Below, piece by piece: positions 26,474 through 43,238 of a stretch of DNA of 64,000 bases; within the stretch, counting starts at the first letter, position 1; every line of letters begins with the position of its first letter. The DNA comes from an uncultured Lachnospiraceae bacterium (GTDB lineage Bacteria; Bacillota; Clostridia; Lachnospirales; Lachnospiraceae), in the NCBI GenBank assembly GCA_947586255.1, contig CANPXP010000004.1, positions 40,034 to 104,033 on the forward strand, read 5' to 3'. Both the position numbers and the translations under genes were made by a program. The notes under the pieces are model-generated. The model did no database searches and was not told where the DNA came from. It saw only the letters and a list, made by a program, of their open reading frames with translations.

Positions 26474-28519
26474 TTATCGGACCAGTGACAGAAGCGATGC
26501 GTCTCTGTCCCGCTCGTCAAAGGAAACATACTGCAGCGACACCGCATCGAGCGCCGTTCCCGTTTCGTCATCCATCACCGTGATTCTCACGGCTGCCGCA
26601 CCGGCGTCCGTCATGCTTTCCGCATACGCCCGCTCCGTCTCCGTCAACTTCTCCTCTTCCTCTCCCTCTGCCTTTCTCTGCGCACCGCTGCCGCGCAGCG
26701 CAAACACGCCGCCCTGGCTGCCGACAGCCTCCGGTGTCAGCCCAAGCGCCGCAAAGGACGGCGCATACCGCGCATCCTGCAAAACGGCGGTGTCGTTTAT
26801 GGCAATCAGCGCCGTGCAGTCCGCATATTGCAGCGCCTGAAGGTAATATACCGCATCGGTGAAAGTGGCAAATTCCACATTCAGCTCACAGCCCGTTCTT
26901 CCATCCTCGTGAGTCCGGTTCAGTTCTTCATAATAGCGGTCAGTCTCCCGAAGCCGTTCTGACACATATTCCCGAAAACGGCCAAGGCCGTCCGCCGCGT
27001 CCGCGTAACTGCCCTCCGGCCACCGCTCCATCTCCCGCAGATATGCGCCTGACAGATAGACGTCAGCCTCGTATTCGTCCAGCATCTCTCCGAGCGCCTC
27101 CTGCGACCATGCCGTCTCCCGCAGTTTCCGGTATTTTGTATAGATGCGGTTCCACGCTTCCTCATCGCCATTCACCAGAATCTGATTCAGATATCCGCTC
27201 TGCATCAGAACATGATCGGACGGCGCGGCCTGGTACGGCGCCACAAGATTGGCGGAGAGATCATTGAGGAAACAGTTGCCCCAGGTGAGATCCATATCCC
27301 AGGGCGCATATAGCGCCGTCGGCCCGTCCTCTCCTTCCCGAATGGCCAGATACAGGTTTTTGACCATCTTGCCGCTGACATTGTCGACACCCTGTATCAG
27401 ATTATAGAACAGGGCAATATCGATGGCATTGTCGATATCGATCCCCTCGTACAGCCGCTCCGTGTCATCGCGTTTTTCCCACAGCAGATAATCATAGTCC
27501 AGCAGAGGCTTCCAGTTCCGCGCCGCTTCATGGAATGCGCCTTTGATGCGGAATCCCACAGGATTGCCGCCCTCGGTAAAAGCGATATTTCCGTCCGTGG
27601 ACCAGAGTACTCCTTTGTACAGGCCGTCTTTGTCGGAATCGGGATCCAGCGCAAGCTGTTTCTCGTCCACCGGATAGCCCAGCGCATATAACCCCCAATA
27701 TTCTCCGTTCAGGAACAGTTCCAGATATTTATATTCCGTGCCGGTGTCGATCCCCTGCGCGTTATCCGCAGCACAGGAGACTTTCCACAGGTTGGTGCAG
27801 AATACGTTCCGCACCTTCTCCTGATCGTTGTACGCCGGATAGAGAATCCAGTCTTCATCCTGACGCATTCCCAGCAGCGCCGTCTGATTCGGACGGGTAT
27901 GATTGCCGGCGGAATCCGTGACGAGAGACAGACGGTATCCCTTCTTCGGGAATACCTTCGTCGTGTTGCCCCGCACATGGATCGTGCCGTCAGATACGGT
28001 GACGCGGCTGCCGGCTCCCGGGGTATTGTCAAACAGCGTCATAGACATGGCGGTCATATCTTCCCCGATCTCCCCGCCCTCATATTCGATATTCATGAGG
28101 GGAAGCGTCGTACATTTCAGCTCGTACCGCGCACAGGCGTCATCCGTGTACAGCAGAAACGGTATGGCGGCATTGTCAGCGATCGCCTCGTCGGTGATCT
28201 CCTGTTCCATAAAAGCAATCCGCACGCCTCTGTCTCTGCTCCGTATCCTGATCTGCGGGTCATATGCCCTGTCACTTCCCTGTACCAGCGAATAGTAATA
28301 AGTGCCGGAACTCGGATCAAACTGCAGCGTTTCCCCATCGAATACAAGCGCCTCCGGCAAGCCCAGAAACGAGCCGCGCTGCGCTGTGATTTTCTCAAAT
28401 TCGCTCTCATCCACCACGCATGCGGAATAGCGTGTCCCGCCCTCCGCCGTGCGAAGCAGGCACGCTCCGGCGAGCAGCGACGCAAGCAGAATAAACAGGC
28501 CAAGCGCTTTCTTCATCAC
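26474..28519 (-). CDS. CotH kinase family protein
   Basis: IHVRGNTTKVFPKKGYRLSL...WILYPAYNDQEKVRNVF...LYAPWDMDLTWG. Confidence 0.85.
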   Translation of the reverse strand: MMKKALGLFILLASLLAGACLLRTAEGGTRYSACVVDESEFEKITAQRGSFLGLPEALVFDGETLQFDPSSGTYYYSLVQGSDRAYDPQIRIRSRDRGVRIAFMEQEITDEAIADNAAIPFLLYTDDACARYELKCTTLPLMNIEYEGGEIGEDMTAMSMTLFDNTPGAGSRVTVSDGTIHVRGNTTKVFPKKGYRLSLVTDSAGNHTRPNQTALLGMRQDEDWILYPAYNDQEKVRNVFCTNLWKVSCAADNAQGIDTGTEYKYLELFLNGEYWGLYALGYPVDEKQLALDPDSDKDGLYKGVLWSTDGNIAFTEGGNPVGFRIKGAFHEAARNWKPLLDYDYLLWEKRDDTERLYEGIDIDNAIDIALFYNLIQGVDNVSGKMVKNLYLAIREGEDGPTALYAPWDMDLTWGNCFLNDLSANLVAPYQAAPSDHVLMQSGYLNQILVNGDEEAWNRIYTKYRKLRETAWSQEALGEMLDEYEADVYLSGAYLREMERWPEGSYADAADGLGRFREYVSERLRETDRYYEELNRTHEDGRTGCELNVEFATFTDAVYYLQALQYADCTALIAINDTAVLQDARYAPSFAALGLTPEAVGSQGGVFALRGSGAQRKAEGEEEEKLTETERAYAESMTDAGAAAVRITVMDDETGTALDAVSLQYVSFDERDRDASLLSLVR

Positions 28520-29187
28520 AGAATATCCTCGCTGTCATATTCGATGAGGGAAGAACGCTCCACGCCCGCCTCACGTATGTCCGCCATAAGTTCCTGCGGA
28601 TCCTTGAGCGACAGTTCGATCACCATATCCAAGCCGTCGCCCACATAATTCCTGCTCTTGATGCGGTAACGGGAAGTGTGCGCCGCGATCCTGTCCGTGA
28701 CGCCGCTTTCCGCCTCCGCGCCACAGTGCAGCACCAGCACAAACGGTTTCCTGCCGAGACGGATATGTTCAAAGCAGAGCAGGACGACGGTGACCATCAG
28801 AGATGTCAGCACCGCCAGCTCGTACAGTTGGCACCCGCAGGTGATTCCGATGTGGACGGACCACATCAGATACAGCATATCGACCGGATCTTTGACAGCC
28901 GTCCTGAAACGCAGAATCGCCAGCGCGCCGATGGTACCCAGAGTGATGACGATATTGGACTGCAGGCTGAAAATAATCGTGGAGATAAAAAACGGCAGAA
29001 CCGCGATACAGATGTGGAACGACCTGTTGTAGAATGCTCTGTGAGAGACCACCCTGTATACGATAAATTCATATACGCTTAAAACCAGTACCATCAACAG
29101 CACTGAAAGAATGACTTTGGCTCCGCCCACCACGGGATTAGCGTAAGCGCTCGTAATGTTTTCAAGTACATCCTGTATGATGCCCAT
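28516..29187 (-). CDS. DUF4956 family membrane protein
   Basis: GTIGALAILRFRTAVKDPVDMLYLMWSVHIGITCGC. Confidence 0.85.
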   Translation of the reverse strand: MGIIQDVLENITSAYANPVVGGAKVILSVLLMVLVLSVYEFIVYRVVSHRAFYNRSFHICIAVLPFFISTIIFSLQSNIVITLGTIGALAILRFRTAVKDPVDMLYLMWSVHIGITCGCQLYELAVLTSLMVTVVLLCFEHIRLGRKPFVLVLHCGAEAESGVTDRIAAHTSRYRIKSRNYVGDGLDMVIELSLKDPQELMADIREAGVERSSLIEYDSEDIL

Positions 29188-29218
29188 TGTATTTCCCTCC
29201 CTTTCGTATGTTATCAAG

Positions 29219-29920
29219 TCACTGTCTTCCCATTGCCTGCAGCTTTTTCCTGCCCAGCGAATACTTGGAAAAAGACGACTGGATCAGATGATGCTCCGTG
29301 ACAATATGCTTGATATAGGATGGCAGAATATGGTCAAATTTGACTTCCAGCACATGCTGTCCCGCCTCCTGCAGAGGATAACGCAGATAATTTCCATCCG
29401 TGAAATGCTCAAAATCGTCGGCAGCGGATATATTCTGATCTATCGTGATCCGTATGTTGGTAATCTTCTCAACATAGGCGCGGCGCTCAAAGTCGATCAT
29501 CGCTTTCGGCGCAAGAAGCCCTGTCATGCACCGGACGCAGAAGCGCCGAAGCAGCGGTTCATCCGTCCGCCAGAACACTTCTCCGGCGCGCCCCTCCATA
29601 ATCATCGCCAGCTCCTCTGCCGTGATCGGGCAGCTCTCCTTGTGGCAGCGCCCGTCCGCCTTTTCCTTGCGTTCCAGCCGCATCCTGTCACTGCGGTCAT
29701 TATAGTAGCGCACACGGTACTTGACCCGTTCCGACAGCCCCAGATCGTTCGCCCGGGCGCCGGTGTCCTTGTAATCGTCGAAATACAGACTGTGAATGCA
29801 GTATCTGCCGTCCGCGCCGCCGTACTCGTCCCGGTCCATAACCGCGTCCAGCCTGCTGCCTATCACCTGCAGTTCATTCATCCCGCAGCAGTATTTCCAC
29901 TCATTTCGGTATACTTTCAC
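29219..29920 (-). CDS. VTC-domain polyphosphate polymerase
   Basis: GTG start VKVYRNEWKYCCGM; HSLYFDDYKDTGARAND; KYRVRYYNDRSDRMRLERKEKADGRCHKES. Confidence 0.8.
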   Translation of the reverse strand: MKVYRNEWKYCCGMNELQVIGSRLDAVMDRDEYGGADGRYCIHSLYFDDYKDTGARANDLGLSERVKYRVRYYNDRSDRMRLERKEKADGRCHKESCPITAEELAMIMEGRAGEVFWRTDEPLLRRFCVRCMTGLLAPKAMIDFERRAYVEKITNIRITIDQNISAADDFEHFTDGNYLRYPLQEAGQHVLEVKFDHILPSYIKHIVTEHHLIQSSFSKYSLGRKKLQAMGRQ

Positions 29921-29950
29921 TTTTTCACCTCTCCCGCGCGATTCCCCGCC

Positions 29951-30104
29951 GTTATATCTGCGATGGCTGAAATGAACCTCGAAAATCCTTCGGATTTCCT
30001 CGGTCATCTCAGCCATCCAATGATGGCACGGATATGTAAAAAGAGCATATCGCAAGTACACTTGCAAATGCTCTTTTGACATATCCTACCATCGCAGATA
30101 TAAC
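29951..30104. repeat. 154-bp palindromic MITE/REP-like element with 16-bp terminal inverted repeats
   Basis: GTTATATCTGCGATGG (29951-29966) and exact reverse complement CCATCGCAGATATAAC (30089-30104) enclosing two long hairpins. Confidence 0.8.
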
Positions 30105-30540: not shown

Positions 30541-30969
30541 TTAAAACGTCAATACTTCCGGCTTCTGTGCCGCATGCTGATGTTCAGGGCCTGCATATAC
30601 GTGAAGCTTCGTATACATTTGTCTTCCCAAGGGTCCTTTCGGAAGCATTCCTTTGACCGCATGCTCAACCACTCTCTCGGGATGCGTCTTCAGCATATCC
30701 TTCAGAGTCGTCTCTTTCATGCCGCCTACATAGTCCGAGTGATGGTAATAAATCTTCTGATCCAGCTTCTTGCCGGTCACCTTTACCTTCTCGGCGTTGA
30801 CTACGATCACATAGTCGCCCGTATCCATATGCGGAGTAAAGATCGGCTTGTTCTTGCCTCTCAAAACCTTAGCGACCTCGGACGCCAAACGGCCGAGGGT
30901 CATATCTGTCGCATCGACTACATACCATTTTCTATCGATTGTAGCCGGACTTGCCATAAAAGTCTTCAT
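30541..30969 (-). CDS. rplM: 50S ribosomal protein L13
   Basis: [42 protein letters not shown]. Confidence 0.98.
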
Positions 30970-31151
30970 GATATTACCTCCATAGTAGCGATTCGTCTTT
31001 CGACTGTCTGTGCTGTTTCCAAGGCTCTTCGCGCGGATGTCCGGGCCGCCCTCACAAGTCTGCAAAACAGCTGATGACACTTTCTGTCCTATTCCAAAAA
31101 TGTCCCGCCGGGGCTATGGCCGGACACTTTCAAACACTGTCACAGTTACCT

Positions 31152-31180
31152 ATTATATTATACGCCTCCGAGTGTGTCAA
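31152..31180 (-). promoter_or_regulatory. Consensus sigmaA promoter of rplM-rpsI
   Basis: Minus strand TTGACA-N17-TATAAT. Confidence 0.85.
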
Positions 31181-31231
31181 CCTATTTTTTGCCTGACTGT
31201 CCGTGTTTTCACGCCGCCGATCCCGCCATAA

Positions 31232-32089
31232 TCAGCGAGAATCTTTGGAGACCCGGAACAATACAAGATTTCCGATCACCGCAAAAGCGAGGATAAACAC
31301 CAAAAAGACTCCCCACACCAGCCAAAGGTGTCCCGCTGTGTGCGTGAACATACTCTCGGCTTCATGCTCGACACCCGGCACTTCCAGCTGAATTTTGAGC
31401 GGCAGTTCGTTGAGGTCCGATATACTTCCCAGCGCCTCCATGCCCCATCGGCTCAGCATCAGATAAGACAGCTTCTCCGCGCCGCCCTTCATGGTAAACA
31501 GAATCCCGGAGAAAATCAGCTGGACGATCAGGATATAGGGCGCCATCACATTGGCTGTCTCCGTCTTTTTTACCATACAGGAAATCATCAGGCCCATCAT
31601 ATCGGCCGCGTACATCAGAAGCAGAATGCTGATATAGTACTCCACAGTCACGTGCCCGAGCAGAATGCCGCTCTCCGGCAGCGCATTCCCGTAACATTGC
31701 TCCACACCCCAAAAAGCGGTGCACAGGATGAGGCTCTGGAACGCGCACAGGACCAGCTGGATCATGGCTCTGGACGCCACATAGCACTGCAGCCGCGCGC
31801 CGGACATATACTCGCGCTTCACGTTTGCCCGCTCTTTCACCACGATCTGAATCGAGTTGAACAGTCCGCCCCAAATGGCCGCGCTGACGATCACAAAGCA
31901 GGCCGACTTGGTCCCCTCGAAATGCACATACATATTTTCGCCGGCGATCCACACGGTAATTAACGCCGCAACCACCGGGAACAGCAGCATCACCAACAGG
32001 TTTTTGATGTCGCTGAGCAAAATGATCCTGTACTGTCTGCTGTAGATCCGCAGCTCTTTCCATGCCGAAATTCTTCTTGCCTCTTCCAT
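31232..32089 (-). CDS. ABC-2 type transporter permease
   Basis: 285 aa, multiple TM; ABCG-like KERANVKREYMSGARLQCYVASR; follows FHA-ABC ATPase. Confidence 0.8.
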   Translation of the reverse strand: MEEARRISAWKELRIYSRQYRIILLSDIKNLLVMLLFPVVAALITVWIAGENMYVHFEGTKSACFVIVSAAIWGGLFNSIQIVVKERANVKREYMSGARLQCYVASRAMIQLVLCAFQSLILCTAFWGVEQCYGNALPESGILLGHVTVEYYISILLLMYAADMMGLMISCMVKKTETANVMAPYILIVQLIFSGILFTMKGGAEKLSYLMLSRWGMEALGSISDLNELPLKIQLEVPGVEHEAESMFTHTAGHLWLVWGVFLVFILAFAVIGNLVLFRVSKDSR

Positions 32090-32091
32090 GC

Positions 32092-33570
32092 CTATCCTCT
32101 TATATACTTTTCGGGATTTCTCGTCAGAATCCCATACACATCCTTCATGGCGGCCCCGAAATATTCCGCCGCTTCCTGAGGCGTCCCCGTAAATGCGATT
32201 CGGCCGACGTCCTCATACTTGACCATCATGACGACACGGTCAAACAGTTCGATCTCCGAGACGTCATGAATGATGACAATAATTGTTTTCCTCTGATTGT
32301 GGGCGAGATTTTGCAGTATCGTAAACAGTTCTCTCTTCATTTCCGGGTCCAGCCCGGCATCCGGCTCATCCAGATAAAAAAGCGTCTTGTCGGCCGCAAG
32401 GTCGATCGCAATATTCACTCTCTGCATCTCCCCGCCGCTGATCTTATGAATCCTGGACCTGCGCACGGAGTCCAGCCTTAACAGCGAGATCGTCTCATCG
32501 ACTCTGCGCCTGATCTCCTGACTGCTCATGTCCGCCGGCAGCCTCGTCACCGCCGCCTCCCATATCTCTTCTTCCACCGTCAGCATCTCATGCAGGACAT
32601 TCTTCTGCGGCACATTACCGATCAGAAATTTCAGGCGCTCAAAATTGGCATAGAGATCTTCGCCGCAGAACGTGACCCTGCCTTTCACGCCCTGCAGTTC
32701 CATGCCGTTTAAACAGTTCATCAGCGTACTCTTGCCCGCTCCCGAACCGCCCAGCAGCGCCACCAGTTCTCCTTCGCAGATTTCCAGCTTCACATTGCGG
32801 ATCAGTTCTTTTGCGCCCGAACCGCTCTGATCCGGCACCGTCTTGGACTCTATGTCCGCGCTCAGTATGACTCTTTTTTGTTCCTCCGCCGTCTTCGGTT
32901 TCCTCGGGTTAAAGATCAGATTGTCTCCCGAATAGATGAAATTGATATCACACAGGGATATCCTGTCTTTCTCCTGCAGGAGTTCCTGTCCGGAAATTCT
33001 CCTGCCGTTCAGCCAGGTGCCGGCGGCGCTGTGGCAGTCGTCGAGATAATATCTGCCGTCCCGGCAGGTTATCCTGGCATGTACCGCGGATATGTACGGC
33101 CTTTGGATCGCTATTCTGCTCTGCGAGGGATCTCTTCCGATCACAACCTCGTCTTTGTCCTTCATGGAATAGAAGGTCCATTCCTCTCCCACACCGTCCG
33201 TCGTAAACAGCATCCACACGCCATTCGGCGATCTGAAGTCCGGGGTGTCGATCCGCAGCACGTCGCCGTTATCAAGTTTGATGGGTCTGGTATTCCCGTC
33301 CCCGTCCGGCTCTATTTTCCTTCCGTTATAATAGGTGCCGTTCCTGCTCTCCCCGTTGATCCAGAACCACTCTCCCGCGAGACATGCCAATTCTCCCTGG
33401 TGTCTCCCGGCAATCGGTGAGATCAGACTGATATCCGGTGCAGCCGTCGGCGTCCTGCGCCCCACGGTCCGCTTTGCCTCCGTATTTAATCTGCAGGTTC
33501 GTATCTGCCCCTGCTCGATCACGACCAGCGCAGCCTCCTGCACCTCTGCAACATACGATACCGTCTTCAT
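32092..33570 (-). CDS. Double-FHA ABC transporter ATP-binding protein (Rv1747-like)
   Basis: FHA motifs GESRNGTYYNGRKI and IGRDPSQSRIAIQRPYISAVHARITC...GTWLNGRRI; Walker A GGSGAGKST; signature ISGGEMQRVN; LDEPDAGLD. Confidence 0.9.
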   Translation of the reverse strand: MKTVSYVAEVQEAALVVIEQGQIRTCRLNTEAKRTVGRRTPTAAPDISLISPIAGRHQGELACLAGEWFWINGESRNGTYYNGRKIEPDGDGNTRPIKLDNGDVLRIDTPDFRSPNGVWMLFTTDGVGEEWTFYSMKDKDEVVIGRDPSQSRIAIQRPYISAVHARITCRDGRYYLDDCHSAAGTWLNGRRISGQELLQEKDRISLCDINFIYSGDNLIFNPRKPKTAEEQKRVILSADIESKTVPDQSGSGAKELIRNVKLEICEGELVALLGGSGAGKSTLMNCLNGMELQGVKGRVTFCGEDLYANFERLKFLIGNVPQKNVLHEMLTVEEEIWEAAVTRLPADMSSQEIRRRVDETISLLRLDSVRRSRIHKISGGEMQRVNIAIDLAADKTLFYLDEPDAGLDPEMKRELFTILQNLAHNQRKTIIVIIHDVSEIELFDRVVMMVKYEDVGRIAFTGTPQEAAEYFGAAMKDVYGILTRNPEKYIRG

Positions 33571-33609
33571 CTTTTTACGCCCCTGTGTCTGTCTCTACAG
33601 CCGACCTGT

Positions 33610-34893
33610 CTACTGGTATGCGTTATACAGATCCTTCACCTGGCCGGCATCCAGCGCCTGATCCCATATTTTTACATCGTCAAACGCTGCGGGATACAGC
33701 GCGTCCCAGCAGTTGATGCCCAGATATACATCCGGCTCATCTTCATCCATCATCCCGTCAGCGACATCGCCCTCGCCGACATTCACACCGGCCACATACA
33801 GCGTGCCGTGCACACTGTCAGTGCCGCTTCCCGCCTTGGTCCCGTCCACCGTAAAGGCGATGTGATACCAAACGCCCGTCTGCATGTAATCGACCCTAGC
33901 GCTCGGCCGGATCTCAAAACTGCTCCCCGCCTCGTTCGAGGCGGAACTTAGGATGGGCGCCATAGGCGTCGGATCTGTCTTCTGTCCCAGCCACAGTCTC
34001 CGCATCTTGCTCTGATCGAGCATATCACTTCCTATATGGATGAACGGCGCCCAGTCATACAGCTCATCCGCTTTCATCCAGAATGCCACCGTGTAGGAGG
34101 AGCCTATCCTGCCGACATCATCCAGCCGCAGGCCATAGGTCCCGTCCAGATATACCGCCTTGCCTTCCATGCCCGCCACATACTCCGGCTCCACATCCGG
34201 CGCAGGCTCCGGCATCTGCTCGACATCGTCTCTGACTACCACCAGCGCATTCCCCAGATCTCCGTCGAAGTCATAGGAATAAACAGACTTGGGCACGCTG
34301 GTCAAAATGGTATTCCCCACCACCTCATTGGTGGCGGAAACCACCTTGTTCTCTTCATCGGCCGCCGCATCTTCCGCAGGAGCCGACTCGCTTTCCGCCC
34401 CGGAAATATCCGCGTCCTCTCCCGCTTCTTCTCCTTCGCCGGCTTCATCATCCTGCACACCACCCTCCGGCGAAGCGCCGCCGTCAGTCCCGTCCTCTTC
34501 TTCCTCTTCCTTTTCGCTCTCCCGGGAGACGCTGCCTCCGCCTTCGCCGCCCTCGATCACCGTATAATAATAGACTCCCATTCCCACCGCAATTGCCAGC
34601 AGGAGGAACAACACAGCAAACAGCGTGACCATAAGGCGCCTGCTTTGGTTTTCCATCTTTTTGGTTTCCTGCATCCTCTGCTGCACATGAGCCTGCAGAT
34701 CGGTATTCTGCCTGTCCGCAGAGTTTTCGGGCCGCATCGCCGGCCGGGCGGCAGCACCCCCGTTCTTGTCGGCGCGTTCCGGTTTTTTATTCTTCTTCGC
34801 GCCGCCCTGAGGCTCTGTTCCGACCGGCGCGCCGCAGTTCGTACAGAACCTGGCGCCTTCCGGGATCTGTTTTCCACATTTGGTACAAAACAT
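33610..34893 (-). CDS. Zinc-ribbon / TM / acidic linker / LamG-like domain protein
   Basis: MFCTKCGKQIPEGARFCTNCGAP; YTVAFWMKADELYDWAPFIHIGSD...AFDDVKIWDQALDAGQVKDLY. Confidence 0.85.
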   Translation of the reverse strand: MFCTKCGKQIPEGARFCTNCGAPVGTEPQGGAKKNKKPERADKNGGAAARPAMRPENSADRQNTDLQAHVQQRMQETKKMENQSRRLMVTLFAVLFLLLAIAVGMGVYYYTVIEGGEGGGSVSRESEKEEEEEDGTDGGASPEGGVQDDEAGEGEEAGEDADISGAESESAPAEDAAADEENKVVSATNEVVGNTILTSVPKSVYSYDFDGDLGNALVVVRDDVEQMPEPAPDVEPEYVAGMEGKAVYLDGTYGLRLDDVGRIGSSYTVAFWMKADELYDWAPFIHIGSDMLDQSKMRRLWLGQKTDPTPMAPILSSASNEAGSSFEIRPSARVDYMQTGVWYHIAFTVDGTKAGSGTDSVHGTLYVAGVNVGEGDVADGMMDEDEPDVYLGINCWDALYPAAFDDVKIWDQALDAGQVKDLYNAYQ

Positions 34894-34912
34894 GCTCTCT
34901 CCTCCCTACGCC

Positions 34913-35812
34913 TTACTTCTCCGTCTCCTCAAAATATCGGTCTATACCGTCGGCTATGCCATACACGATTTTCCACTGGTACTCATCCGTCTGCATGGCC
35001 AGATCTTCCTTTTCATTGGTCATATAGCCCATCTCCACAATCGTGACCGGAACCCGGCACCAGTTGATGCCGCTCATGGTATCGGTCTCCCATACCCGTT
35101 CCCTGTTTGCCCCGGCAGACTCCGTCATCGCGTCCAGAATACATTCCGACAACAGGAAACACTCTTCATAGATATCCCCGCAATACGGATTGTCCTCTGT
35201 GGGGCATATCGTCATCATACCGTTGGCAGACGCATCTTCCGCGCCGTTGGCGTGTACTCTGATAAAAGCGTCCGCCTGCGCCTCATTGGCGATCTGCGCC
35301 CGTTCGCTGTTGCTTATATCCACATCATTTTTGGTTCTCACCATAATGACGGCGTAGCCCCTGTCCTTCAATTCCTGTTCCAGCTTCAGCGAGACTTCCA
35401 GATTCAGCTCGTACTCATACATGCCGCTGGCAATACCGCGCGTCCCCGCCGCGACCTTCGCTTTCAGTTCGTCTGAGCCGGGGGCCACGGGTTCCTTGTC
35501 AAAATTGCCCTGCTCCTGGTGTCCGGCGTCGATCACAATCAGCTTCCGCGGCTGTTCCTGCTCCGCTTTCTCCTCCGCCTCCTGCACATCCTCTGCCGCC
35601 ACGGTCTTCGCCTCTTGCGGCTCTTCCCGCGTCTCAGTTTCCCAAACGACATCCTCCGGCTCCTGCACATCCTCCACCGGAAGTTCCTCCTCTGCCTCTT
35701 CCACGGGCCTGACCGGCTCCGACAGATACGTCTCTTCTTTCGCGGCGCAGCCCGCCGTCACCCACACCGCAGCGGCAAGAGCCGCCGCCGCTTTGTACCA
35801 TTTCTTTTTCAT
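34913..35812 (-). CDS. N-acetylmuramoyl-L-alanine amidase (Amidase_3) lipoprotein
   Basis: Lipobox [42 protein letters not shown]. Confidence 0.9.
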
Positions 35813-35816
35813 AGCC

Positions 35817-37598
35817 TTAATACTGTACTTCCTCCTGTTCGATCGCCTGCCGGATCAGCTCCTCATTCTGCCTTCTGATCTCCGTATCCGGATAGCCCTG
35901 TACCTGCGCCAGCGCGTTTCGCAGAACCGCCTTGCTGAGAGCCAGATCGTAATCCGACAGCAGCGTATCGGCAGCATTCGGATAGATATCCTCGGACGCC
36001 ATAATCGCATTCTCATAATCCTTGATCAATTCCGTATTCTGTATCTCCAGCTTGCTCAGCGGACTCGGGCTGATGGCGTCGAAGTCATCCGGCGAGTATT
36101 TCTGCGGGATATCCAGATACCATGTCCTGGAGTAGAACCACTGGTTCAGCATACTGTCCTTGAACTGTCTGCCGTGTCTCGCGAATATCTCATTTCTGGC
36201 AATACGCAGCTGCGCCAGGCTCAGTCCGTCCAGATCGGCTTCCGTCACCTCTCTCTGAGAGGAAAAATCCAGCATATAATCCCAGTCCATGTAATCTCCG
36301 GCGAAGGCGCCGCTGATGTCCGACTGCGGTACATACTCCTTCGTGTAAGTGCCGGAGAACTCTGTCGAATCGGAAGTGGACAGAACAATATCCCTGAATT
36401 CCTGCTGATTGTCCGTATCCGGCGACGTATAGCGGAACGCATAGTAATCCTGCTGCTCTTCATAGATACTGAGATAGATATCTGTCAGGATGCTCTCCAG
36501 ATCGTTGACGTTGGCTGAGTAATAAGCCCCCGAGCACTCCTCCGCAAGCGACTGCAGCACATCTGCATCATACTCCTCGCCGATGCCGATGATAAAAAGA
36601 GGAATACCCGAATTCTGCGCCATGGTCACCACGTCTTCATAGGTGTAGCTGCTGCCGTTCTCCATGCCGTCCGTAAAACCGATGACGCACTTGGCCCCGG
36701 ACTCAAAATAGGTCTGATAAAGCCCTACATAGAGCGCATCGTACAGCGCCGTCGTGTTCCCCACGTCGATCGCGTCAATCGCAGCCGTCAGCAGTTCTTC
36801 CCTGTTGGTAAACTCCTGCTGCAGATACACGTAGTCGTCGAAGGAGATGACCTCCGCCCTGTCGCCGTGATCCAGATCCATTCTGGCGATCAGCGACTTT
36901 GCCGCATTCTTCGCCTGCTCCATCTTGTTGTAGTCGTCCATGCTGCCGCTGGCATCCAGGACCAGGTCAATACAGCTGTTGTCTTCATTTAAAACCCGAT
37001 AGACTTCCTCCAGTTCAATCTCCGACGCATTTCCCGCTGTGTCGATCTCCTGCACCGTAAAATCCCCGGCGTCCAGATCATCTACCGTATCATTGTTTTC
37101 GTCCACGACGCTGGCGTAGAAGGTGACTTCCGGAAATTTGGAATTATCCACCTGCCGGATATTCAGCGTGACCGGCGTGCGCTCCCCCTGATATACCTCC
37201 TCGGTCTCTTCCTCCTCTTTGGTCTCTTCGCCGCCTTCTTCGCCTTCTTTGTCTTCTTCGCCTTTCCCCGTGCCGGTGATATCGTCCCCCTCATCCGTGT
37301 CAGACTCGCCGGCTCTGCCCGCAAATTCATCGTTCTGGCGGTACACACCGAAGTACCAAGCGGCGCCGCCGCCCAGCCCGCACAGAAGAACCAATAAGAT
37401 GATAAGCAGGGTAAGCAGCCCTCTGCCCCGATGCGGTCTCTGCTGCGGTTCGCCCGCCGCAGGCAGATCGCCGCCAGACGCCGGCGCATCATTCTGAAAA
37501 CTTTCGTGCGCGCTGCCCTTTCCCGATACCGCCGCGCCGCATTTCGGACAAAACTTCGCACCGTCACGCAGCTCGGCGCCACATTTTACACAAAACAT
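35817..37598 (-). CDS. Zinc-ribbon / TM / vWA / YARHG domain protein
   Basis: [59 protein letters not shown]. Confidence 0.9.
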
Positions 37599-37756
37599 AA
37601 TCCGATCCCCCTCACGCTGATCCTGTCTGTTGTTCGCTGTCTAATAGCGCGTCGCCGGCGCTTCTGCTTCTGTCTCCGCCGCCGCGTCCGCTTCTGTCTC
37701 CGCCGCCGCGTCCGCCGCCGGTGCAGCCATCTCCTCCGCCTGTGCGGCATACCGCC

Positions 37757-40105
37757 TTATCGGGTCATTCCCCCCCCATCCTGACCGCCGCGGATAAAGA
37801 ACGAGCTCACATCGCTGTCAATCGTGATCACATCACGGCCGTCATACAGCTGCAGATCTCCGCGCCTCTTGGCGCTGCTCCTGGTTCTGGTGTAATCCGT
37901 GAGGAAGACAGTCTTGTCACCGTCAAACATCGCATAGCGGGCGTTGGCGACATCATCAGCGATCTTCTCCGCCTTGCCGTTCCGGTACAGCTTCAGTGTC
38001 CCCTCATCGCCATCTTTACTGATATCCGTCAGATACAGCACCATGCCGTCTTCCCATCTGATCGAACCGTCGTACACATCGCTGTCGATCCTGCTTCCGC
38101 CGCAGTACAGATCCCCATCCTCATTCAGATAGTAAATACCATCCTCCTGCACCGTCTCAACAGATACGGCATCATCACAGATCCGCTCCGTTCCCTGATC
38201 CAGTGCGTTGTAATCCAGCGTATAAATCTCCATGGCGCCATCCGACCCGTACACCAGATACAGCGCATGCGGTTTCTCGCTCGCATAAATACTCGGCTCG
38301 TAGTAATCACCGATATCGGATTTGTCAATGCCGATGTCCTCAACCTCAACGGCATTCCCATCCTTCACGCAGAACAGGCTCATGCTTTCACGCAGGTTAT
38401 TCCGCAATGCCTGATACCAGGACACCTCCGAGTCGTTCTCCTCCAGCTCCATGAGTCTGGACAGCTTAATCTTATCCGCTTTTTCTATGTCATACAGCCA
38501 GTAGCACATCAGCGCCGTATGCTCCGTCTGCACCTGGGTGCTGCTCTCGATCGACGCCTCCACGATCATATTTGACTCTCCCTTTTTTGCATCATAGTAG
38601 TACAGCTCTTCCGCGCTGTCACTGATGATGTCGTTCTTTGCGTCTTCCCTGATCCGGTCTCTGTCCCGCTTCTCGTTATAGCTGTCCATCGCCTCATAGT
38701 ACGCGTCGCTTGTCTTGGTGCGGACACCGAAATAGGGATCGCTCACCTGTTCCCTGTAATCATCCTCGTCAGGCTCCTCCATATCCTGATCTTCCGGAAA
38801 ATCATCCTCGATGAGATCATAGAGAGACGTCTCCTCGGCGTCACCCTCTTTGGTGTAGTAGATCTTGGCGCTGCTGTCGATGTCATACACCATGACATCC
38901 ATCACATCTTTGGCGATCTGCTCCTCCTCTTTGTCCTGCATAATATAGAGATGATCATCCTTGCCGTAGACGTAAGTCTTTAAATCCGCCGAATGCGCAT
39001 AGAGACGCTCAATGTCGGATTCCAGTTCGTCCTTGTCTTCACCTATCCTGCATCCGCGGATATACAGATCGCTGCTGCCTTCCGCATTCGCGGCGCGCCA
39101 TGCCACGTTCTTTCCGTCCTCGGACACATACCATTCAGATACGTCGTTGTCGATCATCTCCTCCTCCCCGCCGTCGTATAGATATATTTTGCGGTTAACG
39201 CTGTCCTTAAAATAAATCAGCTTATCATCGTCGATGAGCTCATACGACAGCACATCGGAAGCGATCTCTTCTTCCTCCGCCTTTTTGCTGCCCAGCTTCT
39301 TCCTGTACAGGTCATAGGTCCCGTCCGACGCCAGCCTGTGCGGATAGAATACATATTTGCCGTCGGGAGAAATCGAAACGTTGGCGCTGTAAGACCCGCT
39401 CCCGTCAGCGTCGTCAAAGCACCGATCCTCGATCACACGCGCCTCCCATTTCCTGCCGGCCGCCGTATTGAGTTCGTCGTCCTTGAGATAGAACAGATAT
39501 TCCTCGCTGTCTCCCCCGAGACTGCCGAAGAGTTTCGGGAGCAGGATAATGCACGCCGCGATCACCGCCGCGGCTGCGGCCAGCGCGATTGCCAGCTTCG
39601 CTATCTTCTTTCCCTGTTTTCCTCTGTTCGGTCTGCCGCCCGACATGGCCTTGTCCGCGTTGCCGAAGAACATCCCGCAGGACTGGCAGAACAGATCGTT
39701 GATGCCGTTTTGGGCGCCGCAGTTCGGGCAGAACTTGATCTGCGGCGTCTCGGCCGCCGGCACCATCCTCGCCTCGTGCTCCTCCACTACGCCCGTGGAA
39801 GAAATCTCTATCGCCTCCACTCTGGAGCCGTCATCCGCGGAACTTCCCGTCTCTTCCGGCGCGGTTTCCTCTCCCGCCGCTTCGGAAATCTCCGACGTCT
39901 CTTCTTCTACGGTCGCCGTCTCTTCCTCCGCGGCTCGTTCCGGCACGGTCTGCTGTGACTGCTGCTCTTCATCCGTCACAAGCACGGTCCTGTACTCGTC
40001 GTCATCCTCCCTGGCAGTCGTGTTCATGCCGCTCATGGGAGCGCCGCAGTTCGGGCAGAACGCCGACCCTTCCCCTACCAGTGCACCACATTTTTCGCAA
40101 TACAT
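37757..40105 (-). CDS. Double zinc-ribbon / TM / propeller-like extracytoplasmic protein; 3' end contains G8 tract
   Basis: MYCEKCGALVGEGSAFCPNCGAP, KFCPNCGAQNGINDLFCQSCG, TM, then WD/DUF5050-like repeats. Confidence 0.8.
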   Translation of the reverse strand: MYCEKCGALVGEGSAFCPNCGAPMSGMNTTAREDDDEYRTVLVTDEEQQSQQTVPERAAEEETATVEEETSEISEAAGEETAPEETGSSADDGSRVEAIEISSTGVVEEHEARMVPAAETPQIKFCPNCGAQNGINDLFCQSCGMFFGNADKAMSGGRPNRGKQGKKIAKLAIALAAAAAVIAACIILLPKLFGSLGGDSEEYLFYLKDDELNTAAGRKWEARVIEDRCFDDADGSGSYSANVSISPDGKYVFYPHRLASDGTYDLYRKKLGSKKAEEEEIASDVLSYELIDDDKLIYFKDSVNRKIYLYDGGEEEMIDNDVSEWYVSEDGKNVAWRAANAEGSSDLYIRGCRIGEDKDELESDIERLYAHSADLKTYVYGKDDHLYIMQDKEEEQIAKDVMDVMVYDIDSSAKIYYTKEGDAEETSLYDLIEDDFPEDQDMEEPDEDDYREQVSDPYFGVRTKTSDAYYEAMDSYNEKRDRDRIREDAKNDIISDSAEELYYYDAKKGESNMIVEASIESSTQVQTEHTALMCYWLYDIEKADKIKLSRLMELEENDSEVSWYQALRNNLRESMSLFCVKDGNAVEVEDIGIDKSDIGDYYEPSIYASEKPHALYLVYGSDGAMEIYTLDYNALDQGTERICDDAVSVETVQEDGIYYLNEDGDLYCGGSRIDSDVYDGSIRWEDGMVLYLTDISKDGDEGTLKLYRNGKAEKIADDVANARYAMFDGDKTVFLTDYTRTRSSAKRRGDLQLYDGRDVITIDSDVSSFFIRGGQDGGGMTR
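37770..37777 (-). repeat. Homopolymeric G8 tract (C8 on + strand) at 3' end of CDS
   Basis: gtcattCCCCCCCCatcctg; G9 would open a 42-codon C-terminal tail. Confidence 0.85.
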
Positions 40106-40139
40106 ATACTCTCCTCCTCGTATTTATGGTTAATGCCCC

Positions 40140-41654
40140 TTACAGGCCCAGCGTATCTAAGATACCCTGAAAGAAATCTGCATATCTCTCCAGCGCCGTA
40201 TTGTTCTGTGAAGCGCCCGTGAGACGGAACGTATCGTCCGCGTAGACTTCAAATTCCAAAGCAAAAGGCGCGCCGTCCCGCTCTCCCTCATAGTACACAT
40301 ATTTCTGTGCGGCAGCGCTGTCCTCATAGGTATACCAGCTTCCCTCCGTCTCAGAGTACCTGTCGAGAATCTCTCCGACTGTATACCCCTGTGCCGCATT
40401 GTTTAACTTGCCGTCCCTGACGATAGCGATATCGCTCTGTGCAGACGCGTCCGCCGCACCCGCGCGCATCTGCCGATATGCCTGCGCGCCCGCATCGGCC
40501 TCATTCGTTTCGCCCGCCGCAGCGAATCCGTTCCGCACCCGCGCGCCGAAATCCCGAAGCGTATCACGCTTGACCCACGCCGCCGCCAGTGCAATCAACA
40601 GCACCAGCACAATGATCAGCCGGATCAGCAGTCTGTTAATACTCTGGTATCTCCTGCTCCTCTTTTCGGTTTTCAGATCCTGTCTGCTGATATAGATATC
40701 ATGGTACAGTTCCTCGACCGTCTGCTGCCTGTGTTCAGGCATAACTGACAGACCCTTTTGGATGGCCGTCCGGATATTGGCCGGCACCTTCTTGACCCGT
40801 GCGCCGACCGGCTCCAGGCGATCCTCCCTGATCCGCTCAATGGCTTCGGGGGGCACCTTGCCTGTCAACATCCGATACATCGTCGCACACAGGCTGTAGA
40901 CATCGGTCCATGTCCCCTGATTGCCGTTGGCGGAGTACTGCTCTATCGGCGCATAGCCGTGCTTGAGTACCACCGTCATGCTTTTATCGGACTGCAGGTC
41001 GTAATAGCGGGCGGAGCCAAAATCGATCAGCTTGACCTGATCGTCCGCCGAGACCATCAGATTGTCCGGGCTGATATCGCGGTGAAGCATCTTCTCCTTG
41101 TGGACAATCGCTAACGACTCCATCACCGGCTTCATCAGTTTCAAGGTCTCGTCCAGGGAAAGCGTACCGCCCTTTTGCCGCAGGTATTCCTTCAGCGTAA
41201 TGCCGTCGATATACTCCATCACAATGTAGGCTGTTTTGTTTTCATAAAAAAAATCCTTGACGGAGACAATACCCGGAAGATGAAAGAACTTAGACAATAC
41301 GGACGCTTCCCGCACGAAACGCTCCATACCGGCATGAAATTCAGCCTCAAGAGACTGCGTGAGCAGGTATAACTGCGTATCGTTGCGTTCTGTCGTGTCA
41401 CGTTTGATCAGATTGGCCGGATAAAATTCTTTGATCGCTATTTTAGTCTGCATGTTATTGTCCCATGCAAGATAGGTAATCCCGAAGCCGCCTTCTCCCA
41501 GCGTTTTACCCAGCGTATATTTTTGATTCAGTACCGTGCCCGGCTTCAAAATATGCGGTTCAACCGCAGCTGCGTGCACGGGATAGCCGCAATGCGGACA
41601 CACGGCCGGATTTCCCTCTAACGGCGCAAAACATCCATAACATACAGGCTGCAT
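40140..41654 (-). CDS. Membrane-anchored Ser/Thr protein kinase with N-terminal zinc ribbon
   Basis: GEGGFGITYLAWD glycine loop, IAIKEF, HRDISPDNLM, DFGSAR, TM at RLIIVLVLLIALAAAW. Confidence 0.93.
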   Translation of the reverse strand: MQPVCYGCFAPLEGNPAVCPHCGYPVHAAAVEPHILKPGTVLNQKYTLGKTLGEGGFGITYLAWDNNMQTKIAIKEFYPANLIKRDTTERNDTQLYLLTQSLEAEFHAGMERFVREASVLSKFFHLPGIVSVKDFFYENKTAYIVMEYIDGITLKEYLRQKGGTLSLDETLKLMKPVMESLAIVHKEKMLHRDISPDNLMVSADDQVKLIDFGSARYYDLQSDKSMTVVLKHGYAPIEQYSANGNQGTWTDVYSLCATMYRMLTGKVPPEAIERIREDRLEPVGARVKKVPANIRTAIQKGLSVMPEHRQQTVEELYHDIYISRQDLKTEKRSRRYQSINRLLIRLIIVLVLLIALAAAWVKRDTLRDFGARVRNGFAAAGETNEADAGAQAYRQMRAGAADASAQSDIAIVRDGKLNNAAQGYTVGEILDRYSETEGSWYTYEDSAAAQKYVYYEGERDGAPFALEFEVYADDTFRLTGASQNNTALERYADFFQGILDTLGL

Positions 41655-41669
41655 CTTTCTTCTCCCCTG

Positions 41670-42110
41670 CTATTCTATTCTGGCGCCGCATTTAATACAG
41701 AATCGGCTCCCCGCCGCAAGCTCCGTCCCACACTTCGCACAGCGCACGGAAGCGGGCTGCCTGACCTGCGCCCCGCAGGAAGGACAGAACGCGCTCCCTC
41801 TGGGCACCTCGGTTCCGCACTGGTCACATATCACAATCCCCTTGATCTGGTACAGACCTTCCTTCAGATTGTCGAGTATACCGTCAACCAGATCGATCTG
41901 TTCCATCAGTTCATCAAAGTTTCCCTCTGTTCCGTTCTTATGCGCCTGGTAGTACGCCTCGCCAAGCTGCATGATATACTCGTCCCTGCGCGCCTTGTTC
42001 TTGGCTATCTCACCGGACAGCTTAGTCTGCTCCGATATGTCTTTCGCTTTCTGAGAAATAGAATTTCCCGCCTCTGTCACGCCGCTGCTGATCTTGTCAA
42101 TAAAAGACAT
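41670..42110 (-). CDS. Small protein with coiled coil and two C-terminal zinc ribbons
   Basis: MSFIDKISSGVTEAGNS ... CDQCGTEVPRGSAFCPSCGA...CAKCGTELAAGSRFCIKCGARIE. Confidence 0.88.
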   Translation of the reverse strand: MSFIDKISSGVTEAGNSISQKAKDISEQTKLSGEIAKNKARRDEYIMQLGEAYYQAHKNGTEGNFDELMEQIDLVDGILDNLKEGLYQIKGIVICDQCGTEVPRGSAFCPSCGAQVRQPASVRCAKCGTELAAGSRFCIKCGARIE

Positions 42111-42193
42111 AGTCCCACCTATCCGTGCGTCCAAACTGCACTCATCCGTCTGTAAGAGTCAACAAAATCTCCCTGTCAGACTGCTCCTCATAG

Positions 42194-42224
42194 ATTGTAC
42201 CCCCCCCCCGACTGTTTTTGTCAA
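42194..42224 (-). promoter_or_regulatory. Promoter with G10 homopolymer in spacer (candidate phase-variable)
   Basis: Minus strand TTGACA-AAAACAGTC-GGGGGGGGGG-TACAAT; 19-nt spacer. Confidence 0.75.
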
Positions 42225-42410
42225 TAGTATTGCATTTACGACATTTTCCGCTATACTATCTCTCAGGCAGTATCGCATCAGGGGGGGTGAAGGATACCGG
42301 CGCAGCGCCGGCCACTGGCACAGGAGAGAAAAATAGGAAAAGGGTGGGAGAAGAACGACAGAATGTCGAAAATTAGGATAGGATAGATTCGGGCCAGCGC
42401 GTCGATCCCG

Positions 42411-43238
42411 TCACAGGAACGCAATCCCTATCAGCGTCAGCCCGCAGGCTGGCGCGGTGGGCCCTGCCGCCCGTCTGTCCCTCGCCTCCAGAATATTTCT
42501 GATCTGCTCCGGCGGGATATGGCCACGCCCTGCTTCCATCAGCGTTCCCGCGATGATGCGCACCATATTATAGAGGAAACCGTTACCTGACACTTGTATC
42601 ACAATTTCTTGACCGATATGGTTAATTTTCTCGCTCTGAAAACCGGCCGATCCGACGCCGTCTGCGGGCGTCTCCGGCGCGCCTGCCTCGCTGCCCGAAT
42701 AACCGTCCGCAAACACCCGGATCGAATCGATCCGGCGCACGGTCGTCTCCGCCTGGCTGTCCGCACTGCAGAAACTCTTAAAGTCATGTTCGCCCGTCAG
42801 ATACGCAGCCGCCCGCCGCATCAGGGCGACATCCATCGGCACGTAGGTGTAGTGGGCGTACAGCCTCTTGGTCGGCAGCGGAAAGGGCGCGCAGTAGATG
42901 CGGTACTCATAGGTCTTGCGGCTCGCGCAGTGCCGCGGGTGAAAATCCGGGGCCACCTCCTCCGACTTCTGAATACGGATATCCTCCGGAAGGCTCCGGT
43001 TCAGCGCGTAGGCGAGCTTGTCCGCCGGGATCCGGCTTTCCGTGTCGAAGACCGCCACGTTGCCCAGCGCGTGGACGCCCGCGTCGGTGCGGCTCGCGCC
43101 GGTCACCTCGATTTTTTCTCCCAAAAGCTCAGAAAGGCATCTGTTCAGGATGCCCTCTATCGTCTCTCCGTTCGGTTGTACCTGCCACCCGTGATAGCGC
43201 GTGCCGTCATAGGCGACCGTCAGCATAACTCTTTTCAT
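42411..43238 (-). CDS. truA: tRNA pseudouridine(38-40) synthase
   Basis: LTVAYDGTRYHGWQVQPNGETIEG; GASRTDAGVHALGNVAVFDT. Confidence 0.97.
   Translation of the reverse strand: MKRVMLTVAYDGTRYHGWQVQPNGETIEGILNRCLSELLGEKIEVTGASRTDAGVHALGNVAVFDTESRIPADKLAYALNRSLPEDIRIQKSEEVAPDFHPRHCASRKTYEYRIYCAPFPLPTKRLYAHYTYVPMDVALMRRAAAYLTGEHDFKSFCSADSQAETTVRRIDSIRVFADGYSGSEAGAPETPADGVGSAGFQSEKINHIGQEIVIQVSGNGFLYNMVRIIAGTLMEAGRGHIPPEQIRNILEARDRRAAGPTAPACGLTLIGIAFL

Follow-up and report, generated by a model that had tools for sequence, protein, structure and literature searches.

The closest described relatives of the locus considered here, an eight-gene operon within a 64,000-nt stretch of DNA from an uncultured Lachnospiraceae bacterium (contig CANPXP010000004.1, positions 40,034 to 104,033; hereafter the window), are signalling and secretion systems of several kinds. 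In the mycobacterial protein Rv1747, a disordered linker joins the two FHA domains, and the protein undergoes phosphorylation-dependent condensation (PMC9312465). The PpkA-TssL-Fha pathway of type VI secretion combines a kinase, a phosphothreonine on a membrane protein and an FHA reader (PMC3953482). Garrett et al. 2024 (PMC11217815) described variants of the type VII secretion system (T7SS), named T7SSe, T7SSj and T7SSf, with kinase, PPM phosphatase and FHA components, while EssH is a wall hydrolase dedicated to T7SSb in Staphylococcus aureus (PMC13059805). Proteins built of a zinc ribbon (ZR), a transmembrane segment (TM) and a YARHG domain have been proposed by Coggill and Bateman 2012 (PMC3355149) to be membrane-tethered transcription factors.

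Our tentative reading, with a probability of roughly 45%, is that the operon encodes a zinc-ribbon phospho-signalling and wall-remodelling cassette acting on FHA-bearing export ATPases. An FHA-bearing transport ATPase is encoded next door in all three kinase-bearing copies of the operon (those of the window and of the sister species G008 and G300), and a Thr-Val-hydrophobic motif in one of the membrane proteins is retained in these kinase-bearing copies only (five sequences).

The operon and its conserved core

As the earlier note on this DNA had claimed, eight consecutive minus-strand genes are separated by short gaps, all the open reading frames being present and tightly spaced at 31232-42110 (or up to 42134, depending on the first start). 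In the order of transcription, the genes are as follows.

41670..42134, minus strand: dzr, cytosolic helical N-terminus and two zinc ribbons (Pfam)
40140..41654, minus strand: Ser/Thr kinase, with zinc ribbon, kinase domain, TM and an ectodomain of about 140 amino acids (Pfam)
37757..40105, minus strand: "propeller-like" protein, with zinc ribbon, acidic linker, zinc ribbon, TM and a large ectodomain; fold unproven
35817..37598, minus strand: vWA-YARHG protein, with zinc ribbon, TM, vWA and YARHG domains (Pfam)
34913..35812, minus strand: Amidase_3 lipoprotein with lipobox TAGC (Pfam)
33610..34893, minus strand: LamG protein, with zinc ribbon, TM and a LamG-like lectin domain (Pfam)
32092..33570, minus strand: double-FHA ABC ATPase, found in the window copy of the operon only (Pfam)
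31232..32089, minus strand: ABC-2 permease that pairs with the FHA ATPase (Pfam; 61-62% identity to the permeases of loci L095 and L093)

The intergenic gaps are, in the same order, 15, 34, 158, 4, 19, 39 and 2 bp, and most gene starts have a Shine-Dalgarno-like stretch; dzr may start at TTG 42134 (154 amino acids) or at ATG 42110 (146 amino acids), either being possible. The domains assigned previously were recovered by Pfam (zinc ribbon, Pkinase, VWA with YARHG, Amidase_3, Laminin_G_3, two FHA with ABC_tran, and ABC2_membrane), apart from the propeller. This label was not borne out: the ectodomain matched no Pfam family, the single-sequence AlphaFold model was too poor to support a propeller fold (mean pLDDT, the model's own confidence score, of 37), and a profile of five orthologues run against PDB gave only a weak match of the zinc ribbon and linker to ArnA (E 0.007). 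We retain the name for convenience. By eye, the catalytic motifs of the kinase (G-loop, K75, HRD, DFG), the Walker A/B and signature motifs of the ATPase and the DxSxS motif of the vWA domain are complete, and the amidase keeps its H/E/H/E set (zinc-binding His/Glu and catalytic Glu) and an export signal. An anti-phage defence kinase (MADS, PD-T4-6) was also considered and rejected, as the matches were generic kinase and ATPase ones and the partners of these systems were not found; the NCBIfam MAD6 match of 148 bits, vs a cut-off of 460, speaks against defence as well.

A full-length orthologue of the vWA-YARHG protein, with 65-67% identity, is present in four of the 77 other species of the genus. 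A lack of synteny in other genomes had been set beforehand as a finding that would refute the earlier proposal; in all four species (G008, G300, G009 and G030) dzr and the propeller-like, vWA-YARHG, amidase and LamG genes recur in the same order. The complete order in these operons is dzr, kinase, ZR-TM protein, propeller-like protein, vWA-YARHG protein, amidase, a further ZR-TM protein and LamG protein, where the kinase and the second ZR-TM protein are present in some copies; in particular, the G009 and G030 copies have no kinase. Orthologues of dzr (64-68%) stand first in all four operons, and full-length propeller-like orthologues (38-45%) are likewise found in all four, together with those of the amidase (76-82%) and the LamG protein (46-49%). 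In each of the four, the first ZR-TM protein is a zinc ribbon-TM-SH3-M14 zinc carboxypeptidase; it is missing from the window, and the sister amidases carry a segment read as SH3-like that the window amidase does not have. The FHA-ABC ATPase and permease were not seen in any of the four sister copies, the G009 contig ending inside the LamG gene, with its downstream region out of view.

This comparison indicates that the conserved core consists of dzr, the propeller-like, vWA-YARHG, amidase and LamG proteins and, in some copies, the kinase and the M14 carboxypeptidase, and that only the window copy has the FHA-ABC exporter with its permease. Several partial or neighbouring arrangements were also observed. 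In G179 (L078:8408-10373), a dzr orthologue (61%) precedes a lone ZR-TM protein, and the other operon genes are missing. The window's own genome encodes another such amidase (69%), which has an SH3-like segment and is followed by a further ZR-TM protein, in a locus cut by the contig end (L073:9131-11971, G000:C7). Both kinase-less copies (L218/L219; G009, G030) adjoin a gene for GH130 mannooligosaccharide phosphorylase.

In the window, the eight genes lie between truA and rplM.

42411..43238, minus strand: truA, upstream flank of the block
31152..31180, minus strand: promoter-like site of rplM, sigma-70-like (12/12 match), downstream limit of the block
30541..31080, minus strand: rplM, downstream flank of the block

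The promoter-like site is also kept in relatives with an empty site, and three close relatives, G012, G302 and G179, have an empty junction. Gaps were computed from coordinates for 43 same-genus genomes of other species in which truA and rplM share a contig: the truA-rplM distance is 98-393 bp in 24 of them, while 1.6-38.7 kb of other, differing genes are found between truA and rplM in the remaining 19. The junction (window 31080-42411) is thus prone to insertion, and by this comparison the eight genes either arrived there or were put together there as a block; no copy of the operon was found among the junctions read in 20 same-genus genomes. The eight-gene set is not a chance assemblage, since four sister species keep the core in the same gene order and the junction is usually otherwise empty; these comparisons identify the operon as real and lineage-restricted. 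The G+C content at third codon positions is 65-73% in the operon, 75-80% in truA/ecf and 58-60% in rplM/rpsI; lying between the flank values, it is not decisive as evidence for a foreign base composition. Just downstream of rpsI (window 26474-30082), outside the operon, ordinary-looking CotH-kinase, DUF4956/MgtC-like and VTC-domain genes stand in a row.

Export machines beside the cassette

Beyond the LamG gene of G008 come genes for a TM-FHA protein, EssC (FHA and FtsK/SpoIIIE domains), LytTR, YukD, WXG100 proteins, DUF4176, vWA-FHA, two PP2C phosphatases and two kinases. The G300 operon lies at the other end of a similar T7SS locus, directly after a PP2C gene. The sequence in view around the kinase-less copies of G009 and G030 holds no FHA or T7SS gene, the former contig ending at LamG. 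The window genome has its own T7SS on contig C6 (L075/L076, G000:C6:60000-94991), the operon being on contig C4; this locus comprises EssC-FHA, 70% identical to EssC of G008, YukD, WXG100-like proteins, DUF4176, vWA-FHA, PP2C, LRR-kinase, TPR-kinase and a LytTR regulator, and its layout is not obviously any of the published T7SSc-j ones.

The exporter of the window belongs to another class of FHA-bearing machines. The scan of named genomes for FHA-ABC yielded 80 loci, of which 68 hold FHA and ABC together; within flanks of up to 10 kb, a kinase is found at at least 35 of these 68, PP2C at at least 32 and zinc-ribbon proteins at at least 23, all being lower bounds due to many short contigs. The nearest relatives of the window exporter are those of L095 (57%), L093 (52%, the closest full-length one) and L094 (48%); the first two are accompanied by PP2C and a kinase, the third by vWA-FHA. 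Moreover, L093 has FHA-DUF6382 and an EssC-like ATPase, resembling T7SSe (PMC11217815). Within the genus, G297 has a separate unit of PP2C, FHA-ABC, permease and kinase, with 32% identity to the window ATPase. Kinase with FHA-ABC is, by these neighbourhoods, a widespread and known theme, and its attachment to this cassette appears peculiar to the window. In a Lachnospiraceae metagenome-assembled genome (L116:17311-20400), a subtilase fused to an FHA domain lies within an FHA-ABC/kinase/PP2C cluster.

The earlier note had proposed that the kinase gates the FHA-ABC exporter, by analogy with Rv1747 and PknF. In its strongest form the operon would be a closed unit of this type, with the zinc-ribbon proteins and the amidase as exporter accessories. 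The presence of a kinase and a double-FHA ABC ATPase in one operon agrees with it, and so do the recurrence of this pairing in Clostridia, with a kinase within 10 kb of 35 of the 68 loci, the fused FHA-ABC-permease proteins beside a ZR-kinase (L054, L069) and the FHA-ABC-permease followed by ZR-TM-YARHG in L128. However, the exporter is not a conserved partner, being absent from the four other operon copies (with the region downstream of LamG in G009 not visible), and the kinase-bearing sister copies adjoin a T7SS with EssC-FHA. The parallel itself also holds in part: the kinase is nearer to PpkA than to PknB, and alignment with the Mycobacterium protein of L151 revealed no disordered phospho-acceptor linker between the window FHA domains. 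The binding residues of these domains are partly degenerate, FHA1 keeping GR and Asn and missing Ser, and FHA2 keeping GR and Ser and missing Asn; EssC of both the window genome and G008 keeps Arg, Ser and Asn. Finally, none of the eight operon genes encodes PP2C, which is present at the genome's own T7SS and beside the G300 copy. We regard the closed unit as unlikely.

Wall enzymes, kinase and proposed mechanism

A YARHG gene directly precedes an amidase of the same type in 12 loci (L050, L055, L079, L080, L084, L087, L088, L089, L091, L209, L210, L213) and lies within a few genes of one in L211; neighbouring YARHG and amidase genes of this kind occur in at least six families. In an unselected sample of 97 genomes, YARHG is present in 19, and its coordinates abut those of the amidase in seven of the 18 other YARHG-bearing genomes (G046, G049, G077, G087, G095, G097, G118), where by our estimate far less than one such case is expected by chance; hence the pairing is, on this comparative evidence, real and older than the operon. 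The Blautia loci L133/L141 also have an amidase beside FHA-ABC, but it belongs to a different Amidase_3 type. The adjacency, together with the M14 carboxypeptidase of the sister operons, strengthens the earlier suggestion that the amidase would remodel the wall, and the earlier interpretation as a whole is partly supported.

The same pairs could point to a secretion-independent surface complex that senses peptidoglycan, in which the YARHG, vWA, LamG, M14 and amidase proteins would both renew and monitor the wall, with an optional kinase and merely incidental ABC or T7SS neighbours. The G009 and G030 copies, having neither kinase nor T7SS, are consistent with it, as is the pairing of YARHG and amidase in many families where neither T7SS nor FHA accompanies it. 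Against this, an FHA transport ATPase adjoins every one of the three kinase-bearing copies, and the change of the phospho-motif in the kinase-less copies (below) suggests that the kinase acts on the core. We regard such a complex as unlikely.

The kinase looks active and PpkA-like, its nearest solved structure being PpkA (5hnv, E 6e-52) vs PknB (E 1.6e-26). Two short motifs are candidates for its sites.

40965..40979, minus strand: MTVVL, residues 226-230 of the kinase activation loop; candidate autophosphorylation site, invariant in three operon kinases
39977..39991, minus strand: RTVLV, propeller-like protein residues 39-43, within the cytosolic linker; candidate phosphothreonine and FHA ligand

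The activation loop of the window kinase reads TVVLKHGYAP. The position of RTVLV is occupied by KTVLI in G008 and KTVIL in G300, and by KTSAL and RTAHL in the kinase-less copies of G009 and G030, respectively. The strict acidic pattern [KRE]T[VT][VIL][LIVF], chosen after the motif had been seen, matches four of 53 zinc-ribbon proteins in kinase loci, none of 23 in loci without a kinase and 0.2 in shuffles; three of the four matches are orthologues, and the enrichment may be taken as a lead, not proof. The fourth match, a zinc-ribbon protein in an FHA-ABC/kinase locus (L145:16427-17407), has six tandem EKTVVLDDFD-type repeats and diverged copies, resembling the kinase activation loop, and looks like a multivalent phosphothreonine bait.

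In the proposed cassette, the zinc ribbons would cluster the kinase and receptors at the membrane, and the ectodomains of the vWA-YARHG, LamG and propeller-like proteins, facing the wall or glycans, would read the state of peptidoglycan. The kinase would then phosphorylate Thr40 in RTVLV of the propeller-like linker, and the FHA domains of an export ATPase might bind the phosphorylated linker, so that the exporter is recruited or gated where the amidase opens the wall. The client machine in the sister species appears to be the T7SS (EssC-FHA, WXG100); in the window species, the cassette may have moved to the truA-rplM junction and acquired the FHA-ABC exporter, with a possible further action in trans on the T7SS encoded elsewhere in that genome. 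The client thus appears to be interchangeable (T7SS or FHA-ABC), with the kinase optional in a conserved zinc-ribbon/YARHG/amidase heart. A more specific version, possible and less probable than the general one, is a wall-opening kit for non-canonical T7SS, in which zinc-ribbon receptors, amidase and M14 carboxypeptidase are assembled and switched by the PpkA-like kinase via the Thr-Val-hydrophobic phospho-motif read by the EssC FHA domain, the kit being re-targetable to an FHA-ABC exporter. If this version is correct, signalling and wall remodelling would be joined in a portable cassette, exchangeable between two classes of export machines.

The role of zinc ribbons bears on one more explanation. 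The vWA-YARHG protein, with its N-terminal zinc ribbon, single TM and extracellular YARHG domain, fits the ZR-TM-YARHG family, and the architecture matches that of Coggill and Bateman (PMC3355149), in whose proposal the zinc ribbons would bind DNA and be released by extracellular YARHG signals. Zinc ribbons often bind nucleic acids. No cleavage or DNA-binding domain was seen in the operon proteins, however, and the same ribbon occurs on the kinase and on several unrelated ectodomain proteins, which a protein-docking tag fits better; we consider membrane-tethered transcription factors very improbable.

Several observations weigh against the phospho-signalling cassette. Its adjacency to T7SS rests on two genomes, the two kinase-less copies are outside T7SS neighbourhoods (as far as the G009 contig is visible, up to LamG), YARHG-amidase pairs from beyond the genus likewise have no T7SS around them, and the window operon is far from the T7SS of its own genome. 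The window ATPase has two partly degenerate FHA domains, and the operon has no PP2C of its own, as described above. The motif correlation comprises five sequences, three of them motif-bearing orthologues, and a looser phospho-bait motif, T[TV]VL, is not enriched across all cluster proteins.

Comparison with described systems

A literature search, with subscription literature not covered, returned no paper describing this gene combination. The cassette bears on how T7SS crosses a thick wall outside staphylococci and on which ligands are bound by the FHA domains of export ATPases, as it brings together one defined kinase, a predicted phospho-site, FHA readers and a pair of wall enzymes; natural copies with the kinase lost or the client machine changed make direct comparative testing possible.

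As in Rv1747-PknF of Mycobacterium tuberculosis, a double-FHA ABC exporter and a Ser/Thr kinase share one operon, but here the ATPase and permease are split over two genes, the FHA domains have no disordered linker, the kinase is PpkA-like with a zinc ribbon, and surface proteins and an amidase are added. PpkA-PppA-Fha (PMC3953482) resembles the operon in having a PpkA-like kinase, a membrane protein with a candidate cytosolic Thr switch and an FHA reader on the machine; it differs in that no type VI genes were seen in the window operon, which has no PP2C and encodes monoderm-type wall proteins. The ZR-TM-YARHG proteins (PMC3355149) have the same architecture, to which a vWA domain is added here, whereas an operon with kinase, amidase and export ATPase is not described in the parts of that source that were examined.

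The T7SS variants with kinase, phosphatase and FHA components (PMC11217815) are resembled by the T7SS loci next to the sister operons, where EssC-FHA, WXG100, YukD, PP2C, kinases and FHA proteins are encoded. In contrast, the window copy is outside a T7SS locus; moreover, the text of that paper never mentions zinc, amidase or ABC transporter, and the zinc-ribbon/YARHG/amidase/M14 cassette is not described there. With EssH (PMC13059805), G008 and G300 share a wall amidase encoded at the secretion locus, but here it is an Amidase_3 lipoprotein instead of a CHAP enzyme, accompanied by an M14 carboxypeptidase and linked to a kinase.

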